Origin: Acidimicrobiia bacterium
GTDB lineage: Bacteria; Actinomycetota; Acidimicrobiia; IMCC26256; PALSA-555
Assembly (NCBI GenBank): GCA_035948415.1
Contig: DASZJD010000123.1
Span: 1 to 64,000 of the forward strand
Length of the DNA: 64,000 bases
Direction of reading: 5' to 3'
The notes under the pieces are model-generated. The model did no database searches. It worked only from the letters and a program-made list of their open reading frames with translations, and was not told where the DNA came from. This document shows positions 27,408 through 37,455 of the stretch, one piece after another. Position numbers and translations under genes: made by a program. Numbering within the stretch: the first letter of the stretch is position 1; each line of letters begins with the position of its first letter.

Positions 27408-28754
27408 TCAGGGCGCCAGCGGGAGCAGCTGCGCCTGCGTTGGCTCGGCGCAGCAGAACCACGGCTCGCTGAGCCTCGGCACCGCCGCCGCGCGCGCCTC
27501 GTCGACCGCGACCGGGGGGAGCCCGAGCGCGGCGCGGACCCGGCCGTAGACGGCCGGGATCGACGCGCCGGCTTCCGTCTCGGCCTCGACGAGCCCGGCC
27601 AGCTCCACCTGCAGCGCGTCGACCGCCGGATCGGCGGCCCGCCACGCGTACGTCGCCCGCTCTTGGTCGTACGAGCCGAGGTGCGGGACCACGTCGGGGT
27701 GGTCGAGGAGCAACGAGCCCGGCGGCAGCAGCAGCCGGATCGTGTACTGCACGGGGTCGACGTTGCCGACGAGGTCGTGGGCGGCCACGAACTCGACCAG
27801 GGCCTGGAGCTGCTCGAGGGTGGTCCAGGGCGTGAACGGCAGCCAGGACGGGCGCACCTCGATCCCGTGCGTGCGCAACAGCGTCACCGCCGCGGCCGCG
27901 TCGGCGGTCGTGTGGCCCTTGTCGAGGCAGGCCAGCGTCCGGTCGTCGACGCTCTCGAAGGCCGAGACGACGAACAGGCACCCGGCGGCCGCCAGCTCGG
28001 GCCAGAGGTCCTGGTGGGCGAGCACGTGCTCCACCTTGACCGTGCAGTCGTAGGTGAGGGCCGGGAACCGTTCGTGGACGGCTCGGACGACGCGGCGGGC
28101 GTGGTGGGGGCCGTTCAGGAAGTCGGGGTCCGCGAAGGTCAGGTGCTCGGCCCCGGCTGCGACCTGCTGGGCGACGTCGGCGAGGACGGCGTCGACGCCC
28201 ACGACGCGGATGCGGCCGTCGTAGACGACGGGCACCGGGCAGTGCCGACACCGGTGCGCGCAGCCGCGGCTCGCCTCCACGGCCCCGACGAGCCGCTCGC
28301 GGTCGCCCCAGCGGAGCCGGGCGTACCGGTCGAGGGGCGGGAGGAGCTCGCGGGCCGGACGCGGGACCTCGCCGCCGTCCCGCTCGAGGTGGACGACCCG
28401 GCCGTCGTCGGCGCCGTCGATCCAGGCGAGGAGCGCGGCGTCGGTCTCGCCGGCGAAGACCCGGTCGGCGCGGTCGGCCATCGCCGCGCCGTAGAGCCCG
28501 AAGCAGGCCACCGGGAGCTCGGGTCGGCGCCGCCGCACCTCGTCGATCACCTGCCGCGCGATGCGGGTGGCGGTGTGCATCGGCACGGAGCAGGCCACGC
28601 GGTCAGCCCAGTCGACGAGGCCAGGGTCCCACGGCTGCACCGCCAGGTCGTGCCCCCGGACCTCGTGGCCGGCGGCGCGGAGCCGGGCGGCGGGGCCAGC
28701 GACGCCGAGCGGCTGATGGCCGAGCTCGTAGCAGGACACCAGGGCGACGCGCAT
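27408..28754 (-). CDS. CUAEP/CCAEP-tail radical SAM protein
   Basis: A 448-residue radical SAM enzyme. An N-terminal B12-binding-like Rossmann region (1-115) precedes the SAM cluster motif CAHRCRHC (Cys165, Cys169, Cys172). The C-terminus carries Cys434-Cys435-Ala-Glu-Pro, the tail that names the CUAEP/CCAEP family, in which some members have selenocysteine at the second position. Here both codons are TGC, so this is a Cys form. TAGCCT lies 7 bases before the ATG. It faces the aconitase-lipoprotein pair and lies beside an ATP-grasp gene. The reaction is unknown. Confidence 0.85.
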   Translation of the reverse strand: MRVALVSCYELGHQPLGVAGPAARLRAAGHEVRGHDLAVQPWDPGLVDWADRVACSVPMHTATRIARQVIDEVRRRRPELPVACFGLYGAAMADRADRVFAGETDAALLAWIDGADDGRVVHLERDGGEVPRPARELLPPLDRYARLRWGDRERLVGAVEASRGCAHRCRHCPVPVVYDGRIRVVGVDAVLADVAQQVAAGAEHLTFADPDFLNGPHHARRVVRAVHERFPALTYDCTVKVEHVLAHQDLWPELAAAGCLFVVSAFESVDDRTLACLDKGHTTADAAAAVTLLRTHGIEVRPSWLPFTPWTTLEQLQALVEFVAAHDLVGNVDPVQYTIRLLLPPGSLLLDHPDVVPHLGSYDQERATYAWRAADPAVDALQVELAGLVEAETEAGASIPAVYGRVRAALGLPPVAVDEARAAAVPRLSEPWFCCAEPTQAQLLPLAP

Positions 28755-28761
28755 CGGGCCG

Positions 28762-28767
28762 AGGCTA
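28762..28767 (-). promoter_or_regulatory. -10 box, leaderless radical SAM gene
   Basis: TAGCCT on the minus strand, 7 bases before ATG 28754. Confidence 0.5.
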
Positions 28768-28850
28768 GGCCCGGTCGCCCGGCCCGGCGCCGAGCCGGCG
28801 GACCGGTCGCCGACGCCGCGGCCCCGCCGCCGGCCGAAGCCGACCGGCGC

Positions 28851-30035
28851 TCAGGCGATCTCGACCGTCAGCCGCGCGTGCGCGCGTCGGAGCGCGTCCT
28901 CGACCCCGGCCGGATCCGGGGCGCGGGCGAACAAGAACCCGAGGTAGCGGTCACCCTCGGGCAGGGCCCGCACGGCGCGACCACGCGGGATCGTGACCTC
29001 GAGCCCGACGATCCCGGGCACGGCGCGCGCGTCGTCCTGGCCGCGGACTGCCACCAGGGTGCCGGAGCGCGGGATCGGCAGCATCATCACGCCCGATGCC
29101 TGCGGCTCGCGGGTCAGGTCCTCGATCGGCAGCTGCAGCGCGTGCCGCAGGATCACCTCCTCGAGGCTGATGCCGGCGCCGAGCCGGAGCGAGCGCGCGC
29201 ACAGCCCGCCGATCGAGCGTGCCGCTACCTCGAGCACCGACACGCGCCCCTCGTGGACTCGCAGCTCGGCGTGCACCGGACCCTCGGTGAGGCCGAGCGC
29301 GCCGGCGGCGTCGGCGGCGACGCGTCGCACCGACGCCAGCGTCTCCTCGGGAAGCCGCGACGGCGTGACGTAGATCGTCTCCTCGAAGTAGGGGCCCTCC
29401 ATCGCATCGGGCTTGTCGAACACCGCCAGCACGGTGAGCTCGCCGCCGCGGAGCAGCCCCTCGACCGCGACCTCGACGCCGGGCACGTACTCCTCCACGA
29501 GCAGCGGCTGGCCGGCGATGGCCGCCGCCTGGCGCGCGGCCGCCTCGGCGCCCGCGGGGTCGTCGGCGCGGATCACGCCCCGGCTGGCCGAGGACCGCGT
29601 GGGCTTCACGACCCGAGGCCAGCCCACGTCGGGGAGGTCGTCCGGCGCCGCCAGCCGCGCGTAGCGCGGCTGGGGCACCTCGGCGGCGGCGAGGGCGTCG
29701 CGCATCGCCGCCTTGTCGCGGGTGCGGGCGACCGCGTCCGGCGGGTTGTGCGGGAAGCCGAGGCGCTCGCCGGCCTGGGCCGCGACGACGACGCCCTGGT
29801 CGTCGACGGCGACGACGGCGTCGATCGGGCTGCGGGCGTCGAGCGCCTCGATGACCCGCGCCGCCTGGTCCGGATCGTCGAGGGGGACCGTCACCGCCCG
29901 GTCGCCCATCGTCGCCGCCAGCACCGGCGCCTCCTCGGAGGCGACGACGACCTCCACGCCGAGGGCCCGGGCCGCAGCGACGAAGTCGGCGGCCCGGTAG
30001 GTCGCCGTGGGCAGCAGTAGGAGCGCACGGGGCAC
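28851..30035 (-). CDS. ATP-grasp domain protein (carboxylate-amine ligase type)
   Basis: A 394-residue ATP-grasp enzyme. An N-terminal Rossmann-like domain (1-105), central ATP-binding lid with RVVKPTRSSASRGV and LVEEYVPGVEVAVEGL, and Mg-binding LEVAARSIGGL near residue 290. Such enzymes join a carboxylate to an amine or thiol with ATP. It lies 96 bases upstream of the radical SAM gene on the same strand and diverges from nfuA by 17 bases. A joint peptide- or metabolite-modification role with the radical SAM enzyme is inference. Confidence 0.82.
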   Translation of the reverse strand: MPRALLLLPTATYRAADFVAAARALGVEVVVASEEAPVLAATMGDRAVTVPLDDPDQAARVIEALDARSPIDAVVAVDDQGVVVAAQAGERLGFPHNPPDAVARTRDKAAMRDALAAAEVPQPRYARLAAPDDLPDVGWPRVVKPTRSSASRGVIRADDPAGAEAAARQAAAIAGQPLLVEEYVPGVEVAVEGLLRGGELTVLAVFDKPDAMEGPYFEETIYVTPSRLPEETLASVRRVAADAAGALGLTEGPVHAELRVHEGRVSVLEVAARSIGGLCARSLRLGAGISLEEVILRHALQLPIEDLTREPQASGVMMLPIPRSGTLVAVRGQDDARAVPGIVGLEVTIPRGRAVRALPEGDRYLGFLFARAPDPAGVEDALRRAHARLTVEIA

Positions 30036-30040
30036 GGTCT

Positions 30041-30046
30041 TATGAT
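30041..30046 (+). promoter_or_regulatory. -10 box, leaderless nfuA gene
   Basis: TATGAT, 6 bases before ATG 30053. The opposite strand reads CATCAT (30047-30042), 6 bases before the divergent GTG 30035, so both promoters nearly coincide. Confidence 0.55.
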
Positions 30047-30052
30047 GGCCAC

Positions 30053-30679
30053 ATGAGCGACGAGGCCCAGCCAGCGGTGGTCGTCACCGACGCCGCCCGC
30101 GAGAAGATCCTCGAGGTTCGGGCCGACGAGCCCGACGCCGACGCGCTCGCGCTGTGGGTCGAGGTGAGCGGCGAGTCCGCGGGGGCGTTCAGCTACACGA
30201 TGGAGCTGCGCCCGCTGGCCGAGGCCGGGACCGACGACCTCGTGCAGCGCCACGACGACCTGTCCCTCGTGGTGCCGGCGTCGAGCGTCGATCGCCTCCG
30301 AGGCGCGACCTTGGACTTCGCCGGCGCCGGGATGGTGATGCAGAACCCGAACCGGCCGGCGGCGGCCCCGAGCGCGGGCTCGCGTCCCTCCGCCGACCTC
30401 TCCGGGCCGGTGGCCCAAGCCGTGCTGACGGTGCTCGACGAGCAGATCAACCCCGCCATCGCCGCCCACGGGGGCCAGGCCGACCTCGTGGCGGTGGAGG
30501 AGGGCGTGGCCTACGTGCGCATGTCCGGCGGGTGCCAGGGCTGCGGGCTGGCCGCCGTCACCCTGACCCAGGGCATCGAGGTCGCGATCCTGGACGCCAT
30601 CCCCGAGATCAGCTCGGTCGTGGACGTGACCGACCACGAGGCCGGCGACAACCCGTACTACGAGTCGGCCAAGAAGTAG
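30053..30679 (+). CDS. Fe-S cluster carrier NfuA-type protein
   Basis: A 208-residue protein. The N-terminal A-type (HesB-like) domain (8-98) lacks the usual cluster cysteines. The C-terminal Nfu domain (118-195) has Cys161 and Cys164 in GGCQGCG, which hold a [4Fe-4S] cluster between two monomers. It passes clusters to apo-enzymes; aconitase and the radical SAM enzyme nearby are both possible clients, which is inference. Same arrangement as E. coli NfuA. Confidence 0.9.
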   Translation: MSDEAQPAVVVTDAAREKILEVRADEPDADALALWVEVSGESAGAFSYTMELRPLAEAGTDDLVQRHDDLSLVVPASSVDRLRGATLDFAGAGMVMQNPNRPAAAPSAGSRPSADLSGPVAQAVLTVLDEQINPAIAAHGGQADLVAVEEGVAYVRMSGGCQGCGLAAVTLTQGIEVAILDAIPEISSVVDVTDHEAGDNPYYESAKK

Positions 30680-30685
30680 CGCCGC

Positions 30686-31402
30686 TCAGCTGAAGCGCTT
30701 GGCGTCCTCGGCGGCGTAGCGCGCCACCGCGGTGTCGGCCCGGGCGGTGGCGACGACCGCGTCCAGCACCGCCGGCAGCTGCGCGGCCGGGATCGCGCAC
30801 GTCATCTCGGTGGCGGGCATGCCGGTCCGGACCCGGCTCAGCGCGCAGCCGACGCTGGCCGCGGCCTCGCCCTGCTCCTTCGCCACCGCGACGATGTGGC
30901 ACTGGGGCTTGCCCTCGATTCGGAGCCCCGGGAGGGCGTCCGAGAGGACCATTAGCTGCTTCGCGTGCACGCGCAGCAGCACCACGTCGGGGTCGACGGT
31001 CGTCTCGGCGAGGGGCCCGTAGGTCACCGCGCCGGGGCGGGTGCGCACGGTCGGGATCTGGGGCACCGCGTCCATCGTCACCCAGCCCGCCTCGAGGAGC
31101 GTCGCGACGTCAGCGCTCGTGGCGACGTCCTCGAGCGTCGTGAACCCGTGGGTGACGCTGCCGACCGAGCAGTTGGCGTGGTCCTCGGCCACGGTCGAGA
31201 ACGTGCGCTCGGTGGCGTGGGTCCAGAACACGCAGCCGGCGGGCACGCGGCCGGTTCGCCCGTCCGCGGTCGGGGGCGGCGTCGGGGCGTCGAAGGGCTC
31301 GACCTCGGGGGGCGGCTCGGCGCCGAAGGTGATCGCGATCGGGGGCGCGGCCAGGTTCAGCGCGTCGGTCAGCTCGCCCGCGAGGCCCGGCCAGTCGGTC
31401 AC
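30686..31402 (-). CDS. DUF169 family protein
   Basis: A 238-residue protein matching DUF169: PPIAITFG near the start, GCVFWTHA, HANCSVG, then KPQCHIVA and SVGCALSRVRTGM with conserved Cys residues, and ATEMTCAIP. The conserved cysteines suggest a metal or cluster site. Function unknown. GTG start at 31402 with a TAGCGT box 6 bases upstream, hence leaderless and separate from the VOC gene. Confidence 0.82.
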   Translation of the reverse strand: MTDWPGLAGELTDALNLAAPPIAITFGAEPPPEVEPFDAPTPPPTADGRTGRVPAGCVFWTHATERTFSTVAEDHANCSVGSVTHGFTTLEDVATSADVATLLEAGWVTMDAVPQIPTVRTRPGAVTYGPLAETTVDPDVVLLRVHAKQLMVLSDALPGLRIEGKPQCHIVAVAKEQGEAAASVGCALSRVRTGMPATEMTCAIPAAQLPAVLDAVVATARADTAVARYAAEDAKRFS

Positions 31403-31899: not shown

Positions 31900-33045
31900 T
31901 CAGCCGCCGCGGAGGGCCCGCAGCTTCCCGATCACCTCGGGGAAGGCGGCGCCGAAGGCGGCGACGTCGGCGTCGGTGGTGCTCCAGCCCACGCTCGGCC
32001 GCAGCGACCGCTCGGCGTCGACCCCCATCGCCGCCAGCACCGGTGAGGGCTCGAGCGCCTCGCTCGAGCACGAGGAGCCGGAGTGCACCGCCACGCCGTG
32101 CTGGTCGAGGCCCAGCAGCACCGGCTCGGCCTCGACGCCGTCCACGGCGAGGCACACCAGGTGCGGCAGGCGCGCCGTCGGGTCGCCGAGCTCGTGGACG
32201 CCCTCGACGGCGGTGGCGTCGGCGACGAGCCGGGTGGTCTGGGCGCGGGCGGTCTCGGCCTCGGCGTCGAGCCGGCCGGCGGCGTCGAGCTCGGCGGCGG
32301 CGGCGCCGAAGCCCACGATGGCGGGGACGTCCTCGGTCCCGGCCCGCCGGGCCCGCTCCTGGTCCCCCCCGACCACGAACGGCGGCAGCCGGACCCCACG
32401 CCGCACCAGCAGCGCCGCCGCCCCCTTCGGCCCGCCGAGCTTGTGGGCGGTGACCGAGCAGAGATCGGCGCCGAGCTCGCCGAAGTCGAGGCGCACGTGG
32501 CCGGCGGCGGCGCAGGCGTCGACGTGGACGAGCACCCCCCTGTCGCGCGCGCCCGCGACCACGACGGGAACCCCGCCCTGGAGGGTCCCGACCTCGTGGT
32601 TGGCGAGCTGCACGGTGACGAGCGCCGTCTCCGGTCGGAGCGCGGCGACGACCTCGTCGCCGTCGAACCGGCCTCGCCCGTCGACCCCGACGACGGTGAC
32701 GTCAGCGTCGGCGCGTCGGCACGACTCCAGCACCGCCGAGTGCTCGACCGCGCTCGTCACCACGTGCGGCCGCGCCGGAGCGGCCGCGGCCCGGGCCACC
32801 GCGCCCCACACGGCCGCGTTCACGGCCTCGGTGCCGGTGGCGGTGAACACGACCTCGCGGGGTCGGGCCCCCAGCAGCGCGGCCACCTCGACACGAGCGT
32901 CCTCGACGGCGACCCGGGTGACGCGGCCGTCGCTATGGACGCGCCCGGGGTCGGCGGGGTGGTCACGCAGGTAGGGGAGCATCGCCTCGAGCGCCACCGG
33001 TCGCAGCGGCGAGGACGACGCGTGGTCCAGGTAGGCCCGGCTCAC
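31900..33045 (-). CDS. Cysteine desulfurase (class V aminotransferase, IscS/NifS type)
   Basis: A 381-residue PLP enzyme that takes sulfur from cysteine for Fe-S clusters or thiolation. PLP-binding Lys202 is in TAHKLGGPKG, His102 stacks on PLP, and Cys326 in SGSSCSS is the persulfide residue on the flexible loop, as in group I enzymes. It follows the SufR-like regulator by 10 bases, with an AAGG ribosome-binding site. No scaffold gene is adjacent; Mrp and NfuA are nearby on the other strand. Confidence 0.92.
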   Translation of the reverse strand: MSRAYLDHASSSPLRPVALEAMLPYLRDHPADPGRVHSDGRVTRVAVEDARVEVAALLGARPREVVFTATGTEAVNAAVWGAVARAAAAPARPHVVTSAVEHSAVLESCRRADADVTVVGVDGRGRFDGDEVVAALRPETALVTVQLANHEVGTLQGGVPVVVAGARDRGVLVHVDACAAAGHVRLDFGELGADLCSVTAHKLGGPKGAAALLVRRGVRLPPFVVGGDQERARRAGTEDVPAIVGFGAAAAELDAAGRLDAEAETARAQTTRLVADATAVEGVHELGDPTARLPHLVCLAVDGVEAEPVLLGLDQHGVAVHSGSSCSSEALEPSPVLAAMGVDAERSLRPSVGWSTTDADVAAFGAAFPEVIGKLRALRGG

Positions 33046-33055
33046 GGGCTTGCCT

Positions 33056-33820
33056 TCAGACCCGGGCGACGCAGTGGTCGCTGCCCTCGGGGCGGCTGGC
33101 CTCGAAGTGCGGGGACGTCTCCCCGTACAGGCCGGCGAGCATGCCGCGGATCATGCCCCGGTCGAGCGCGCACACGACGTGCGGGTAGCGCTGCGCAGCG
33201 TCGCCGAACGGGCAGCACTCGGACACGATCGTGAAGTCGTCGCCGTCGGCCTCGGCGTGGGCGGCGAAGCCGTGGGCGGTGAGGGCGTCGGCGACCGCCG
33301 CGATCGCGGTGCGAGCCGACCGGTGCCCGGCGCCGGGGTCCATCCGCCGGGCGAGGTCGCGGCCGTACTCGTAGCCGACCTGGTCGGCGAGGGCCTCGGC
33401 CGGCTCGGGCCCGAGGGCGTCGAGCGCGCCGGCGAGCAGGCTGGCGAGCACGCCGTCGTGGCGGAGCGGGAGGGCGAGGGTGTCGTGGCCCGAGGCCCGG
33501 TAGCGCTTCGACGGGCGGCCGGCGGGCCGGGCCCCGTCCCCGGGGCGGGCGATCTCCACGAACAGGTACCCGCCGCCGGTGAGCTTCTCGAGGTGGTGGC
33601 GCGCCACGTTCGGGTGGAGGGCGAAGCGCTCGGCGACGTCGGCGGTCGTCACCCCCTCGGCGGCCTCCCGCACGAACAGGTAGATGTCGCGGCGGGTCGG
33701 GTCCCCGAAGGCGTTCGTCACCGCGGCGACGGCCGCGGTGAACTCGTCGGCGCTCAAGGCGCGTTCCCCGGCGGTGACGTCGGGGTCGTGGAGCGCCCGC
33801 AGGGCGGGTTCGCCGGCCAC
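33056..33820 (-). CDS. SufR-like Fe-S-sensing transcriptional regulator
   Basis: A 254-residue protein. The N-terminal winged helix (about 25-95) is of ArsR/DeoR kind, with TTADVAERFALHPNVARHHL. The C-terminal part has Cys202, Cys203, Cys217 and Cys250 in the spacing ECCPF...VVC...HC that binds a cluster in SufR regulators. It likely represses when loaded with a cluster. The GTG start is leaderless, with its TAGAAT -10 box overlapping a perfect palindrome. It heads an operon with cysteine desulfurase and diverges from mrp. Confidence 0.85.
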   Translation of the reverse strand: MAGEPALRALHDPDVTAGERALSADEFTAAVAAVTNAFGDPTRRDIYLFVREAAEGVTTADVAERFALHPNVARHHLEKLTGGGYLFVEIARPGDGARPAGRPSKRYRASGHDTLALPLRHDGVLASLLAGALDALGPEPAEALADQVGYEYGRDLARRMDPGAGHRSARTAIAAVADALTAHGFAAHAEADGDDFTIVSECCPFGDAAQRYPHVVCALDRGMIRGMLAGLYGETSPHFEASRPEGSDHCVARV

Positions 33821-33826
33821 GCCGGT

Positions 33827-33832
33827 ATTCTA
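33827..33832 (-). promoter_or_regulatory. -10 box, leaderless SufR-like gene
   Basis: TAGAAT on the minus strand, 6 bases before GTG 33820; its first bases lie inside the operator palindrome. Confidence 0.6.
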
Positions 33833-33845
33833 CCTACGCTGGTAG
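33830..33845. promoter_or_regulatory. Putative SufR-type operator
   Basis: CTACC-TACGCT-GGTAG, a perfect 5-base inverted repeat with a 6-base spacer, between the divergent regulator and mrp genes. It overlaps the regulator's -10 box, so binding would block its own transcription and probably that of mrp. Confidence 0.6.
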
Positions 33846-33873
33846 TGGAAAATCCCGTTCCCGGAGTGCCGCC

Positions 33874-35022
33874 GTGACCGTGTCCGACGCCGACGTGCGG
33901 GCGGCGCTGCGCGGGGTCGAGGACCCCGAGCTGGGGCGCTCGGTCACCGACCTCGGGATGGTCGCCGGGGTCGAGCGGGACGGGCCCGCGGTGGTCGTCC
34001 GCCTGGCGCTGCCGCTCCCCGAGGAGGGCTGGCCGCCGGACCGACTCGACGACCGGGTCCGCGCCGCCGCCCTGGCGCTGCCCGGGGTGGAGCGGGTGGC
34101 CGTCGAGCACCGGCCCATGACCGAGGCGGAGGCGGCCGGCGCCGCCCGGGTCTTGCGCGGCGAGCCGGCCGCGAACCCGCTGGCGGTGGTCGACGCCGCC
34201 GCCGGGCCGGCCCCGCCCTCGCCGCGCCGGAACCCGTTCACCGACGCCGCCACCCGGGTGCTGGCGGTGGCGTCGGGCAAGGGCGGCGTCGGCAAGTCGT
34301 CGGTGACCACGAACCTGGCGGTGGCGCTGGCCGCCCGCGGCCACCGCGCCGCGGCCCTCGACGCCGACGTTTGGGGCTTCTCGCTGCCGCGCATGTTCGG
34401 CGTCGACCATCCCCCGGGGCTCGTCGACGACGTGATCGTCCCGCCCCGAGCCCACGGGGTGCAGCTGGTGTCGATGGGCTTCTTCGCGCGCGACGACCAG
34501 GCCGTGATCTGGCGGGGACCGATGCTCCACAAGGCCCTCGAGCAGTTCATCACCGACGTGCACTGGAACGACCCCGACCAGCTCCTGGTCGACCTGCCCC
34601 CCGGCACCGGGGACGTGGCCCTCTCGATGGCCCAGCTGCTGCCCCGAGCCGAGGTGATCGTCGTCACCACCCCCCAGCCCGCGGCGCAGCGGGTGGCGCA
34701 GCGGAGCGCGGCGATGGCCGAGCGGGTGAACCTGCCCGTGGTCGGCGTCGTCGAGAACATGTCGTGGTTCACCGGCGACGACGGGAAGCGCTACGAGATC
34801 TTCGGGGCCGGCGGCGGCCAGGCCCTCGCCGACCAGCTCGGGGTGCCGCTGCTCGGCCAGATCCCGCTCGTGCCGGCGCTGCGGGCCGGCGGCGACGAGG
34901 GCCGGCCGATCACCGTCGCCGAGCCCGACAGCGAGGCGGCGGCGGCGTTCGTCGCCATCGCCGAGCGCCTCGACGCGCTGGCGCCCCGGCGGGTCCGCCA
35001 CCCCGAGCTCCGCATCTCCTGA
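33874..35022 (+). CDS. mrp: Mrp/NBP35 family ATP-binding Fe-S carrier (ApbC)
   Basis: A 382-residue P-loop protein. An N-terminal MIP18-like domain (4-80, with VEDPELGRSVTDLGMV) precedes the deviant Walker A GKGGVGKSS (135-143). VDLPPGTGDVALS and VVENMSWF follow. The CPxC pair found after ENMS in most bacteria is absent, as I recall for other actinobacterial Mrp proteins. It carries or inserts Fe-S clusters. The location opposite the SufR-like operator supports an Fe-S role. Confidence 0.9.
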   Translation: MTVSDADVRAALRGVEDPELGRSVTDLGMVAGVERDGPAVVVRLALPLPEEGWPPDRLDDRVRAAALALPGVERVAVEHRPMTEAEAAGAARVLRGEPAANPLAVVDAAAGPAPPSPRRNPFTDAATRVLAVASGKGGVGKSSVTTNLAVALAARGHRAAALDADVWGFSLPRMFGVDHPPGLVDDVIVPPRAHGVQLVSMGFFARDDQAVIWRGPMLHKALEQFITDVHWNDPDQLLVDLPPGTGDVALSMAQLLPRAEVIVVTTPQPAAQRVAQRSAAMAERVNLPVVGVVENMSWFTGDDGKRYEIFGAGGGQALADQLGVPLLGQIPLVPALRAGGDEGRPITVAEPDSEAAAAFVAIAERLDALAPRRVRHPELRIS

Positions 35023-35049
35023 GCGGAGCCGCACCGGCCCGGTTCGACG

Positions 35050-35055
35050 TACAGT
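35050..35055 (+). promoter_or_regulatory. -10 box, leaderless DUF3107 gene
   Basis: TACAGT, 6 bases before ATG 35062. Confidence 0.55.
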
Positions 35056-35061
35056 CGTCGC

Positions 35062-35292
35062 ATGGACGTCCGGATCGGCGTGCTCCACTCCCCGAAGGAG
35101 CTGACCGTCGAGGTCGACGGCGACGCCGCCGAGCTCGAGGAGTCCGTGAACGACGCCCTCCGCGAGGATCGGTCGGTGCTCTGGCTGACCGACGTGAGCG
35201 GCCGACGGGTCGGCGTGCCGGCCGAGCGGGTCGCCTACGTGGAGATCGACCTGGACGGCAGCACCAAGCGGGTCGGGTTCGGACCCGGCTGA
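35062..35292 (+). CDS. DUF3107 family protein
   Basis: A 76-residue protein matching DUF3107 from start to end: VRIGVLHSPKELTVEV, then VLWLTDVSGRRVGVPAERVAYVEI. The family is small, actinobacterial and of unknown function. Leaderless promoter. The gene lies 7 bases before the first ArsA-like gene, so it likely leads that operon. Confidence 0.85.
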   Translation: MDVRIGVLHSPKELTVEVDGDAAELEESVNDALREDRSVLWLTDVSGRRVGVPAERVAYVEIDLDGSTKRVGFGPG

Positions 35293-35299
35293 GCGCCCG

Positions 35300-36271
35300 G
35301 TGACCCCGGCGTCGCTCGGCGCAGGCTTCCTCGACCGCCGGCTCCTCTTCTTCACCGGCAAGGGCGGGGTCGGGAAGAGCACGGTCACGGCGGCGTCGGC
35401 GTTGCTCGCCGCCGACCGGGGGCGGCGGGTGCTGCTCGTCGAGGTCGACGCCAAGGGCAACCTCACGTCGCTGTTCGAGCACCCGCCGGTCGGCTTCGAC
35501 CCGGTGGAGGTGTACCCCGGGGTCAGCGCCATGCAGATGCGCACCGAGGCCGCGCTCAGCGAGTACCTCCGCCTGAACCTGCGGGTCCCGGTGCTCGGCC
35601 GCCTCGGGCCGCTCGCCAACGTCCTCGACTTCGTCGCCACCGCCGCGCCGGGCGTCAAGGAGATCCTCACCGTCGGCAAGGTGTGCTGGGAGGTCCGGGA
35701 GTCGCTGCAGGGTCGCGCCGACTGGGACGTGGTCATCGTCGACGCCGCGGCCACCGGCCACGTGGTCGCGCAGCTCGACTCGCCGCGCGCCATCCAGGAG
35801 CTGGTGCAGGTCGGGCCGGTCCGCCAGCAGACCGAGTGGATGGTCCAGCTCCTGTCGGACCCGAGCGTGACCGCCCTCCATGTCGTCACCGCGCCCGAGG
35901 AGATGCCGGTGAACGAGACCATCGAGCTGGTGGCGCGGGCGCGGGCCGAGCTGGCGGTGCCGCTCGGTTCGGTGGTCGTCAACCGGGTGCTGCCGGAGCC
36001 GTTCAACCGCGCCGACGAGCCCGCCTTCGAGGCGCTGCTCGACGGCCCGGCCCGGGACGAGCTCGAGGCCGACGTCGGGACGGGGGTCGGCGCCGTCCTC
36101 GAGGCGACGCGGCTGGCGGTGTCGCTGCGCCGGTCCCGGGCCGCCCACCTCGCCCGGCTACGCGACGTCGGCCTGCCCCTGCTCTACCTCCCGTACCTCT
36201 TCGTGCGCGATCACGGACTGCGCGTGACGCGCGTGGTTGCCGACCACCTCGCACGCGAGCTCGGGCTGTGA
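35300..36271 (+). CDS. ArsA/Get3-like ATPase, subunit A
   Basis: A 323-residue ATPase of the SIMIBI class. The deviant Walker A is GKGGVGKST (20-28) with signature Lys21; switch I-like EVDAKGN and VVIVDAAATGH follow. GTG start at 35300. The stop overlaps the next ArsA-like gene (GTGA), so the two are made together, like the mycobacterial Rv3679-Rv3680 pair next to whiB4. Arsenite transport is not implied; no arsB or arsR is present. Confidence 0.87.
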   Translation: MTPASLGAGFLDRRLLFFTGKGGVGKSTVTAASALLAADRGRRVLLVEVDAKGNLTSLFEHPPVGFDPVEVYPGVSAMQMRTEAALSEYLRLNLRVPVLGRLGPLANVLDFVATAAPGVKEILTVGKVCWEVRESLQGRADWDVVIVDAAATGHVVAQLDSPRAIQELVQVGPVRQQTEWMVQLLSDPSVTALHVVTAPEEMPVNETIELVARARAELAVPLGSVVVNRVLPEPFNRADEPAFEALLDGPARDELEADVGTGVGAVLEATRLAVSLRRSRAAHLARLRDVGLPLLYLPYLFVRDHGLRVTRVVADHLARELGL

Positions 36272-37455
36272 CGTCGACGAGCATCGAGCCGCTGCTCGCC
36301 TCCCGCGAGATCGTGGTGTTCTGCGGCTCGGGCGGGGTCGGGAAGACCACGACGGCGGCCGCCACGGCGCTGGTAGCGGCGGCCGAGCTCGGCGGCCGGG
36401 TCCTCGTGCTCACGATCGACCCCGCCCGCCGCCTCGCCGACGCGCTCGGCCTCGAGTCCATCGGCAACGTCGAGCGGCGGGTGCCCGACGAGGCGCTGCG
36501 AGGCGCGGGCCTCGAGCCTCGCGGCGAGCTGTTCGCGGCGATGCTCGACACCAAGGCGTCGTGGGACGACCTCGTCTTGCGCCACGCCCCCGACGAGGAG
36601 ACCGCGTACAAGGTCCTTGGGAACAGCCTCTACCAGAACATCACGGCCCGCTTCGTGCAGAGCCACGACTACATCGCCATGGAGCGCCTCTACGACCTCC
36701 ACACCAACGGCCGCTACGACCTCATCGTCGTCGACACGCCGCCGACCCGAAACGCCATCGACTTCCTCGAGGCGCCGAAGCGCATGGCTGAGTTCTTCGG
36801 GGGGCGGCTGCTGCGGTGGCTGACCATGCCGTACCGGCTCGGCGGGCGTCGCGGCGCCCGGGTCGTGAACTTCGCCAGCCGGCCCTTCTACCAGCTGGCC
36901 GACCGGATCCTCGGCAGCCAGTTCCTCCAGGACATCGCCGAGTTCTTCCTGAGCTTCCAGAGCATGTACGACGGGTTCGTCGCTCGCGCCGAGGCCGTCG
37001 AGCGGCTCCTCCACGACCGGCGCACGACGTTCGCGGTCGTCACGACGCTGGAGGGGGCACCGCTCCGCGAGGCGGAGTTCTTCGCCCGGGAGCTCACGCG
37101 CCGCCAGTACCCGTTCGGCGCCATGGTGCTGAACCGGGTGCTGCCCGAGTTCCTGTCCTCGGCCGACGGCCAGGCCGCGGCGGCGACGCTCGCCGACCAC
37201 GCCGACGAGATCGCCAAGCAGCTGGCGGGCCTCGACGAGCCCGTCCTCCAGGAGCCGGACCGGGTCACCCGGGTGCTGCGCACGATGGCGGGGACGTTCC
37301 GTGACTACAGCGTCGTGGCCACGCGCGAGCGGGAGCTGCGAGCCGAGGTCGCGGGGCTGCCCGAGGTCGTCGCCTCGGTGCCGGCCTTCCCCGACGACGT
37401 CCACGACCTCGCCGGGCTGGCGCAGATCGGCCGGGCGCTGCTCGGGACTCCGTAA
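36268..37455 (+). CDS. ArsA/Get3-like ATPase, subunit B
   Basis: A 395-residue ATPase related to the previous gene. Its P-loop is GSGGVGKTT (20-28): the signature Lys is Ser21 here, so it cannot complete a neighbour's active site in the usual way. LTIDPARRLADALG and VDTPPTRNAIDFL are the switch regions. A hydrophobic segment around 200-225 may bind client helices. With subunit A it probably forms an asymmetric dimer with one competent composite site, which is inference. The stop TAA doubles as the start of the next -10 box. Confidence 0.85.
   Translation: MTSTSIEPLLASREIVVFCGSGGVGKTTTAAATALVAAAELGGRVLVLTIDPARRLADALGLESIGNVERRVPDEALRGAGLEPRGELFAAMLDTKASWDDLVLRHAPDEETAYKVLGNSLYQNITARFVQSHDYIAMERLYDLHTNGRYDLIVVDTPPTRNAIDFLEAPKRMAEFFGGRLLRWLTMPYRLGGRRGARVVNFASRPFYQLADRILGSQFLQDIAEFFLSFQSMYDGFVARAEAVERLLHDRRTTFAVVTTLEGAPLREAEFFARELTRRQYPFGAMVLNRVLPEFLSSADGQAAAATLADHADEIAKQLAGLDEPVLQEPDRVTRVLRTMAGTFRDYSVVATRERELRAEVAGLPEVVASVPAFPDDVHDLAGLAQIGRALLGTP

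Follow-up and report, generated by a model that had tools for sequence, protein, structure and literature searches.

In the beta-lysylation of EF-P, a radical S-adenosylmethionine (SAM) enzyme, EpmB, and an ATP-using ligase, EpmA, serve a lysine acceptor on a protein, and the ATP-grasp ligases LysX (acting with LysW), RimK and PylC likewise act on a protein C-terminus or a lysine amine. The solved ATP-grasp enzyme BL00235 (PDB 3vot) is known for free amino acids and has no link to the iron-sulfur carrier NfuA or to a radical SAM enzyme, and the arsinothricin synthase ArsL is predicted to transfer the aminocarboxypropyl group of SAM to arsenite (PMC8552651). Here we analyse a 64,000-nucleotide stretch of an Acidimicrobiia bacterium (contig DASZJD010000123.1, assembly GCA_035948415.1; hereafter the window), in which a radical SAM gene with a Cys-Cys-Ala-Glu-Pro (CCAEP) tail lies beside genes for an ATP-grasp ligase, an NfuA-like carrier and a DUF169 protein. 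Comparison across genomes shows that NfuA bears a KK-type lysine tail essentially only where the ATP-grasp ligase is encoded, whether or not the radical SAM gene is present.

We compared each component with its closest described relatives. The radical SAM protein scores 530.2 bits against NF040546, the CUAEP/CCAEP-tail radical SAM (seleno)protein family (cut-off 500), over profile positions 1–466 of 468, a match far above chance by which it is a member; score, coverage, tail motif and the existence of Cys and Sec forms agree with the family, and no difference was found. The codons of its tail read, on the minus strand, TGG TTC TGC TGC GCC GAG CCA (WFCCAEP), so that this is the cysteine form with two TGC codons, as the initial annotation had it. 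Its five invariant cysteines are the three of the cluster motif CxxxCxxC (C165-C169-C172) and the two of the tail (W432-F-C434-C435-A-E-P438), C434 and C435 being invariant among 48 aligned homologues. A B12-type N-terminal fold is predicted (model predicted local distance difference test, pLDDT, 95), with AprD4, OxsB, TsrM and MgmA as the nearest solved folds. The selenocysteine type, in which TGA stands in frame in place of the second tail Cys codon, accounts for 35 of the 101 loci in one set, which includes the window, and for 26 of the 80 in another. The cultured Thermomicrobium roseum DSM 5159 carries a family gene on its megaplasmid (L219:8935-10371), annotated as ending at a UGA beyond which read-through gives WFC(U)AEP. 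A literature search on CUAEP, CCAEP, RCCLKC, or DUF169 with radical SAM and selenocysteine found no account of the family, which is also absent from the passages covered of a selenoproteome review.

Second best among profiles is the ArsL family (NF040542, RCCLKC tail), at 249.3 bits against a cut-off of 450. The two proteins align at 31–33% over their full length, sharing the N-terminal region, the CxxxCxxC site and a vicinal C-terminal Cys pair; the CCLKC of ArsL aligns with the tail pair here, and its third tail Cys is replaced by Pro. By this alignment the window protein is a distant full-length relative of ArsL. Membership of the arsinothricin pathway itself was rejected on the NF040542 score, the two-Cys CCAEP tail and the lack of ars context: arsM, arsQ and ars regulator genes are absent near the window gene and do not recur beside its homologues. 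Two ArsL clusters, carried by plasmids of Alicyclobacillus and Priestia (L220:1436-2668 and L222:635-1858), hold an ATP-grasp resembling L-amino-acid ligases (LAL), a CMD-family protein and a CobW-type GTPase. The three-gene arsQML pathway has none of these parts, and the clusters might conceivably yield arsinothricin in peptide form. Because these clusters also hold a distantly similar ATP-grasp, radical SAM enzyme and LAL-type ligase may form a general pairing.

The window's ATP-grasp protein carries the ATP-grasp_4 (PF13535; 96.6 bits, gathering score 27) and LAL_C2 (PF18603; 61.8 bits, gathering score 29.4) domains, and BL00235 is its nearest solved relative, over nearly the full length (E = 2e-68). 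Its nucleotide-site residues are conserved and the enzyme looks intact, and ligase activity is plausible. It lies far below the cut-offs of the ligases that act on a protein C-terminus or a lysine amine (31.2 bits against 143.4 for the RimK family TIGR00768, and 31 of 248 bits for PylC), from which, as from LysX/LysW, it would also differ in having NfuA as its acceptor; a search of plasmids for the ATP-grasp gave no match. The NfuA-like protein shares with the E. coli type (TIGR03341) a degenerate A-type N-terminus and a NifU domain with CxxC (PF01106; 74.4 bits, gathering score 27), but remains below the equivalog cut-off (103.2 bits against 269.35) and extends, with ...xxxKK, past the usual YY end. 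To EpmB/EpmA/EF-P the likeness is one of logic only, the radical SAM enzyme being of another family, the target another protein, and EpmA synthetase-like rather than ATP-grasp.

NfuA is found almost throughout the class (in 256 of the 296 genomes sampled, mostly metagenome-assembled genomes, MAGs) and so makes a good control for comparing tails. Where the ligase is encoded, NfuA ends in ...NPYYxxxKK, with variable x residues and fixed lysines; where it is absent, at a threshold of E ≤ 1e-40, NfuA stops at or shortly after NPYY, as in NPYFASH, NPYYAAS or NPFYT. We placed 151 NfuA rows on a quick tree computed without the tail residues, which gives the NfuA topology rather than a species tree. 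All 98 ligase-positive rows have the lysine tail and none lacks it, whereas 48 ligase-negative rows lack it and three have it, two of these three coming from incomplete genomes (66% and 89%) in which the ligase may be missing for that reason, and the third from the genome G024. Ten independent contrasts on this tree agree and none opposes (p = 0.002); the lysine of a partner protein is thus retained together with the ligase, as expected of an EF-P-like system. Beyond the class the pattern recurs: all 12 ligase-positive genomes in which the tail was read end in Lys or KQ, and both ligase-negative ones end in THG or SPG.

Two other explanations of the tail were examined and set aside. That it tracks the radical SAM gene is contradicted by the ligase-positive genomes, where the lysine tail is present in 71 of 71 with the radical SAM gene and in 25 of 25 without it. 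That a separate NfuA paralogue was imported is rejected as a general cause, since KK and non-KK NfuA stand side by side within three genera (g36, g45 and g78). Where two copies do coexist, one genome (G133) has its KK copy beside the ligase and its non-KK copy elsewhere; in another (G225) the linked copy is cut by a contig end and the copy elsewhere is non-KK. Because tails outside Actinomycetota and Chloroflexi read SKG, GKA, GK, EK or, at one locus, AAKK, the residue that counts may be a single lysine, placed four positions beyond the aromatic pair.

The genes themselves travel together, and ATP-grasp, CUAEP/CCAEP radical SAM and the DUF169 subtype co-occur and co-locate across distant lineages. 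Of the 296 genomes, 103 have the radical SAM gene, 127 the ATP-grasp, 100 both (44 expected) and 166 neither; of the three with radical SAM alone, one (G188) has a gene truncated by the end of its contig and the other two are incomplete (72% and 89%). In one genus with genomes of about 1 Mb, where the genes are unlinked, 15 genomes have both, two the ligase only (74–77% complete), none the radical SAM gene only and 24 neither. In 43 of its 44 occurrences the divergent DUF169 subtype is found in a radical SAM genome, and the three genes are nested in their presence, DUF169 within radical SAM and radical SAM within ligase. Fisher p values for these co-occurrences (4e-49, 2e-9 and 5e-22) ignore kinship; with kinship considered, on the NfuA tree, 7–8 independent contrasts between radical SAM and ligase agree and none opposes. 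The cultured type strain of Acidimicrobium ferrooxidans (PMC3035218; L072, G014) has the ligase, a radical SAM gene with tail CCAAPPR and an NfuA with an EKK end.

Gene order tells a similar story. In a sample of 100 radical SAM family loci from the class and phylum, plus the window, the ATP-grasp lies upstream of the radical SAM gene on the same strand and within 3 kb at 54 loci (window included, with a gap of 96 bp), within 100 bp in 49 of these 54, and in 14 loci its stop overlaps the radical SAM start by exactly 4 bp. NfuA is divergent, beyond the ATP-grasp, an arrangement kept down to 35% radical SAM identity and also seen in other groups of actinobacteria. Of 40 loci from which the radical SAM gene is absent or located elsewhere, 38 still have ligase and NfuA as a divergent pair, with NfuA at about 1 kb. 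A further named scan added Chloroflexi, Poribacteria, Nitrospirota, Gemmatimonadota, Rokubacteria, Planctomycetota, KSB1 and one Rhodospirillaceae MAG, and in other phyla the partners recur rearranged, as DUF169-rSAM-ligase (L208), rSAM-DUF169-ligase (L216), rSAM-NfuA-ligase (L209), NfuA-rSAM-ligase (L211), rSAM-ligase-NfuA (L212) or rSAM and ligase (L213), rSAM denoting the radical SAM gene. The neighbourhood comparison proposed in the initial annotation has thus returned ATP-grasp and DUF169 partners in several phyla, in conserved and in rearranged order, and not the random variation among homologues that it named as counting against its idea. That idea, a functional module, is supported by the neighbourhoods and by co-occurrence without linkage; the role it suggested in making a metabolite or peptide is not shown, the evidence favouring NfuA as a likely target of the ligase and not a bystander.

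Covariation of ligase and tail has direct contact between the two as its simplest cause, and we infer such contact. Covalent modification of the tail goes a step further and is a tentative proposal, a lysine being a natural acceptor because the ligase activates carboxylates, as in EF-P lysylation or PylC. We give a probability of roughly 0.45 to a single module centred on NfuA, in which the ligase acts on the lysine tail and the radical SAM enzyme makes or remodels the added group. In this module the ATP-grasp would dock on the NfuA tail and would most likely join a carboxylate, such as an amino acid, to the tail lysine, or else lengthen the C-terminus; the radical SAM enzyme, with its [4Fe-4S] cluster and Cys-Cys or Cys-Sec tail, would make the added group or rework it in place; NfuA could renew that enzyme's cluster, and DUF169 would be an accessory Cys-rich protein. 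The product would be either a modified iron-sulfur carrier, comparable to EF-P modified by EpmA/EpmB, or a carrier-bound precursor released later, as with LysW. The narrower version, that an amino acid is what the ATP-grasp adds and that the ArsL-related, Cys/Sec-tailed radical SAM enzyme builds or remodels the group, is a little less probable still; for ArsL-type chemistry (3-amino-3-carboxypropyl transfer) the argument would be kinship to ArsL and nothing else.

Several observations weigh against the NfuA-centred module. The covariation is compatible with docking alone, without covalent change, and BL00235, which among solved proteins stands nearest to the ATP-grasp, belongs to the L-amino acid ligases rather than to the protein ligases. 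The canonical metal-site motif of ATP-grasp enzymes, E-x-N-x-R, appears here as E-x-A-x-R (E-V-G-A-R in BL00235). Which lysine matters is ambiguous, most tails having both and some only one (SAK, AQK, KQ, KG, KA), and a nearly complete genome (G024) has an ...EPAK tail without a detectable ligase. Finally, 27 of the 127 ligase-positive genomes have no radical SAM gene, which is therefore not obligatory.

The best-surviving alternative, though an unlikely one in our estimation, is a small-molecule pathway like that of arsinothricin. In it a 3-amino-3-carboxypropyl or other radical would pass from SAM, through the action of the radical SAM enzyme, to an acceptor held by the CC/CU tail; the ATP-grasp would then build the amino acid so formed into a small peptide, and NfuA, co-regulated, would do no more than supply clusters, with KK as a docking tag. 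It draws on the full-length homology to ArsL, on the kinship of the ATP-grasp to a free amino-acid ligase, on the LAL-like ATP-grasp proteins of the plasmid-borne ArsL clusters (25% and 22% identical to that of the window) and on the production of hydroxyarsinothricin in E. coli by ArsL alone (PMC8552651). Yet no methyltransferase, exporter or ars regulator recurs beside CUAEP genes, the module is kept in genomes of about 1 Mb, and the link between tail and ligase persists in genomes that lack the radical SAM gene, a pattern left unexplained by docking that serves to supply that enzyme with clusters.

NfuA renews the auxiliary cluster of lipoyl synthase (cf. PMC9585516), and this precedent, with the divergent gene pair and its putative shared promoter box (below), lends something to a second alternative, a stable complex of ATP-grasp and NfuA, held by the KK tail, that delivers iron-sulfur clusters to a set of clients, the radical SAM enzyme among them, with no chemistry on the tail. 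We consider it more doubtful than the small-molecule pathway, because a ligase that looks intact, its nucleotide-site residues conserved, would be left without a function and because ligase-positive genomes without the radical SAM gene keep KK all the same. Chance or purely inherited gene order without a functional link, for which the synteny of the whole block (NifS, SufR-like, Mrp, aconitase) inside the window's order might speak, is rejected as highly improbable: the partners are reordered in other phyla and co-occur unlinked, and the independent contrasts for tail and ligase and for radical SAM and ligase contradict it.

Through the co-occurring genes a widespread selenoprotein family acquires definite partners for the first time, and a substrate that can be put to the test, and the presence/absence contrast of a two-residue tail offers a route to enzyme substrates from genomes alone. 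Were the NfuA-centred module correct, it would be a previously unrecognised post-translational or carrier-protein system, with a modified iron-sulfur carrier or a tail-borne small molecule as its product: iron-sulfur carriers would be added, beside EF-P, to the proteins that a radical SAM enzyme and a ligase tune between them or, alternatively, NfuA would be a new kind of biosynthetic carrier protein.

Table 1. Features of the locus, in window coordinates.
Feature	Position	Strand	Details
CCAEP-tail (Cys form) radical SAM protein	27408..28754	-	448 aa; profile match and codon reading
ATP-grasp ligase, L-amino-acid-ligase type (ATP-grasp_4 + LAL_C2)	28851..30035	-	394 aa; GTG start
Gap between divergent ATP-grasp and NfuA start codons	30036..30052	.	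17 bp; putative shared bidirectional promoter
NfuA-like iron-sulfur carrier	30053..30679	+	208 aa; divergent from ATP-grasp; NifU domain with GGCQGCG
NfuA C-terminal tail, NPYYESAKK-stop	30650..30679	+	proposed docking/modification site; covariation with ligase
DUF169 protein, divergent subtype	30686..31402	-	238 aa; last gene of the locus

The radical SAM, ATP-grasp, NfuA-like and DUF169 genes all lie where the initial annotation had placed them, and profile scores confirm their domains (Table 1). The DUF169 protein (PF02596; 74.7 bits, gathering score 27) is Cys-rich, with C57, C78, C168 and C186 invariant in 18 homologues; within the class its divergent subtype scores 58–86 bits against 126–146 for the canonical one. 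Its fold is modelled with confidence, and structure comparison found no solved fold resembling the model. Between the divergent start codons, 6 nt separate the NfuA ATG from a TATGAT at 30041–30046, which overlaps a minus-strand CATCAT that stands 6 nt from the ATP-grasp GTG; in homologous gaps the box is mostly present, as TATCATG, at the same place. The gap would, on its sequence, be a shared bidirectional promoter giving leaderless mRNAs.

Beyond the module, positions 31900–37455 of the window encode a cysteine desulfurase (NifS), a SufR-like regulator, Mrp/ApbC, DUF3107 and two ArsA-type ATPases, a flank that keeps synteny with the module in some 20 genomes, all of the window's own order. 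Among the other loci, one genome (G325; L119, L124, L332) has two CUAEP genes and two ATP-grasp/NfuA pairs, and in the two of its loci that were examined one radical SAM copy adjoins the ligase and the other DUF169. In several loci of two families (f26 and f31; L078–L100) the radical SAM gene has no linkage to the ligase; its neighbours there are often an ABC-2 type transporter ATPase and permease. Two contigs (L140, L188) are titled Bifidobacterium breve MAGs, yet their gene order and sequence are Acidimicrobiia-like, and the titles look wrong.
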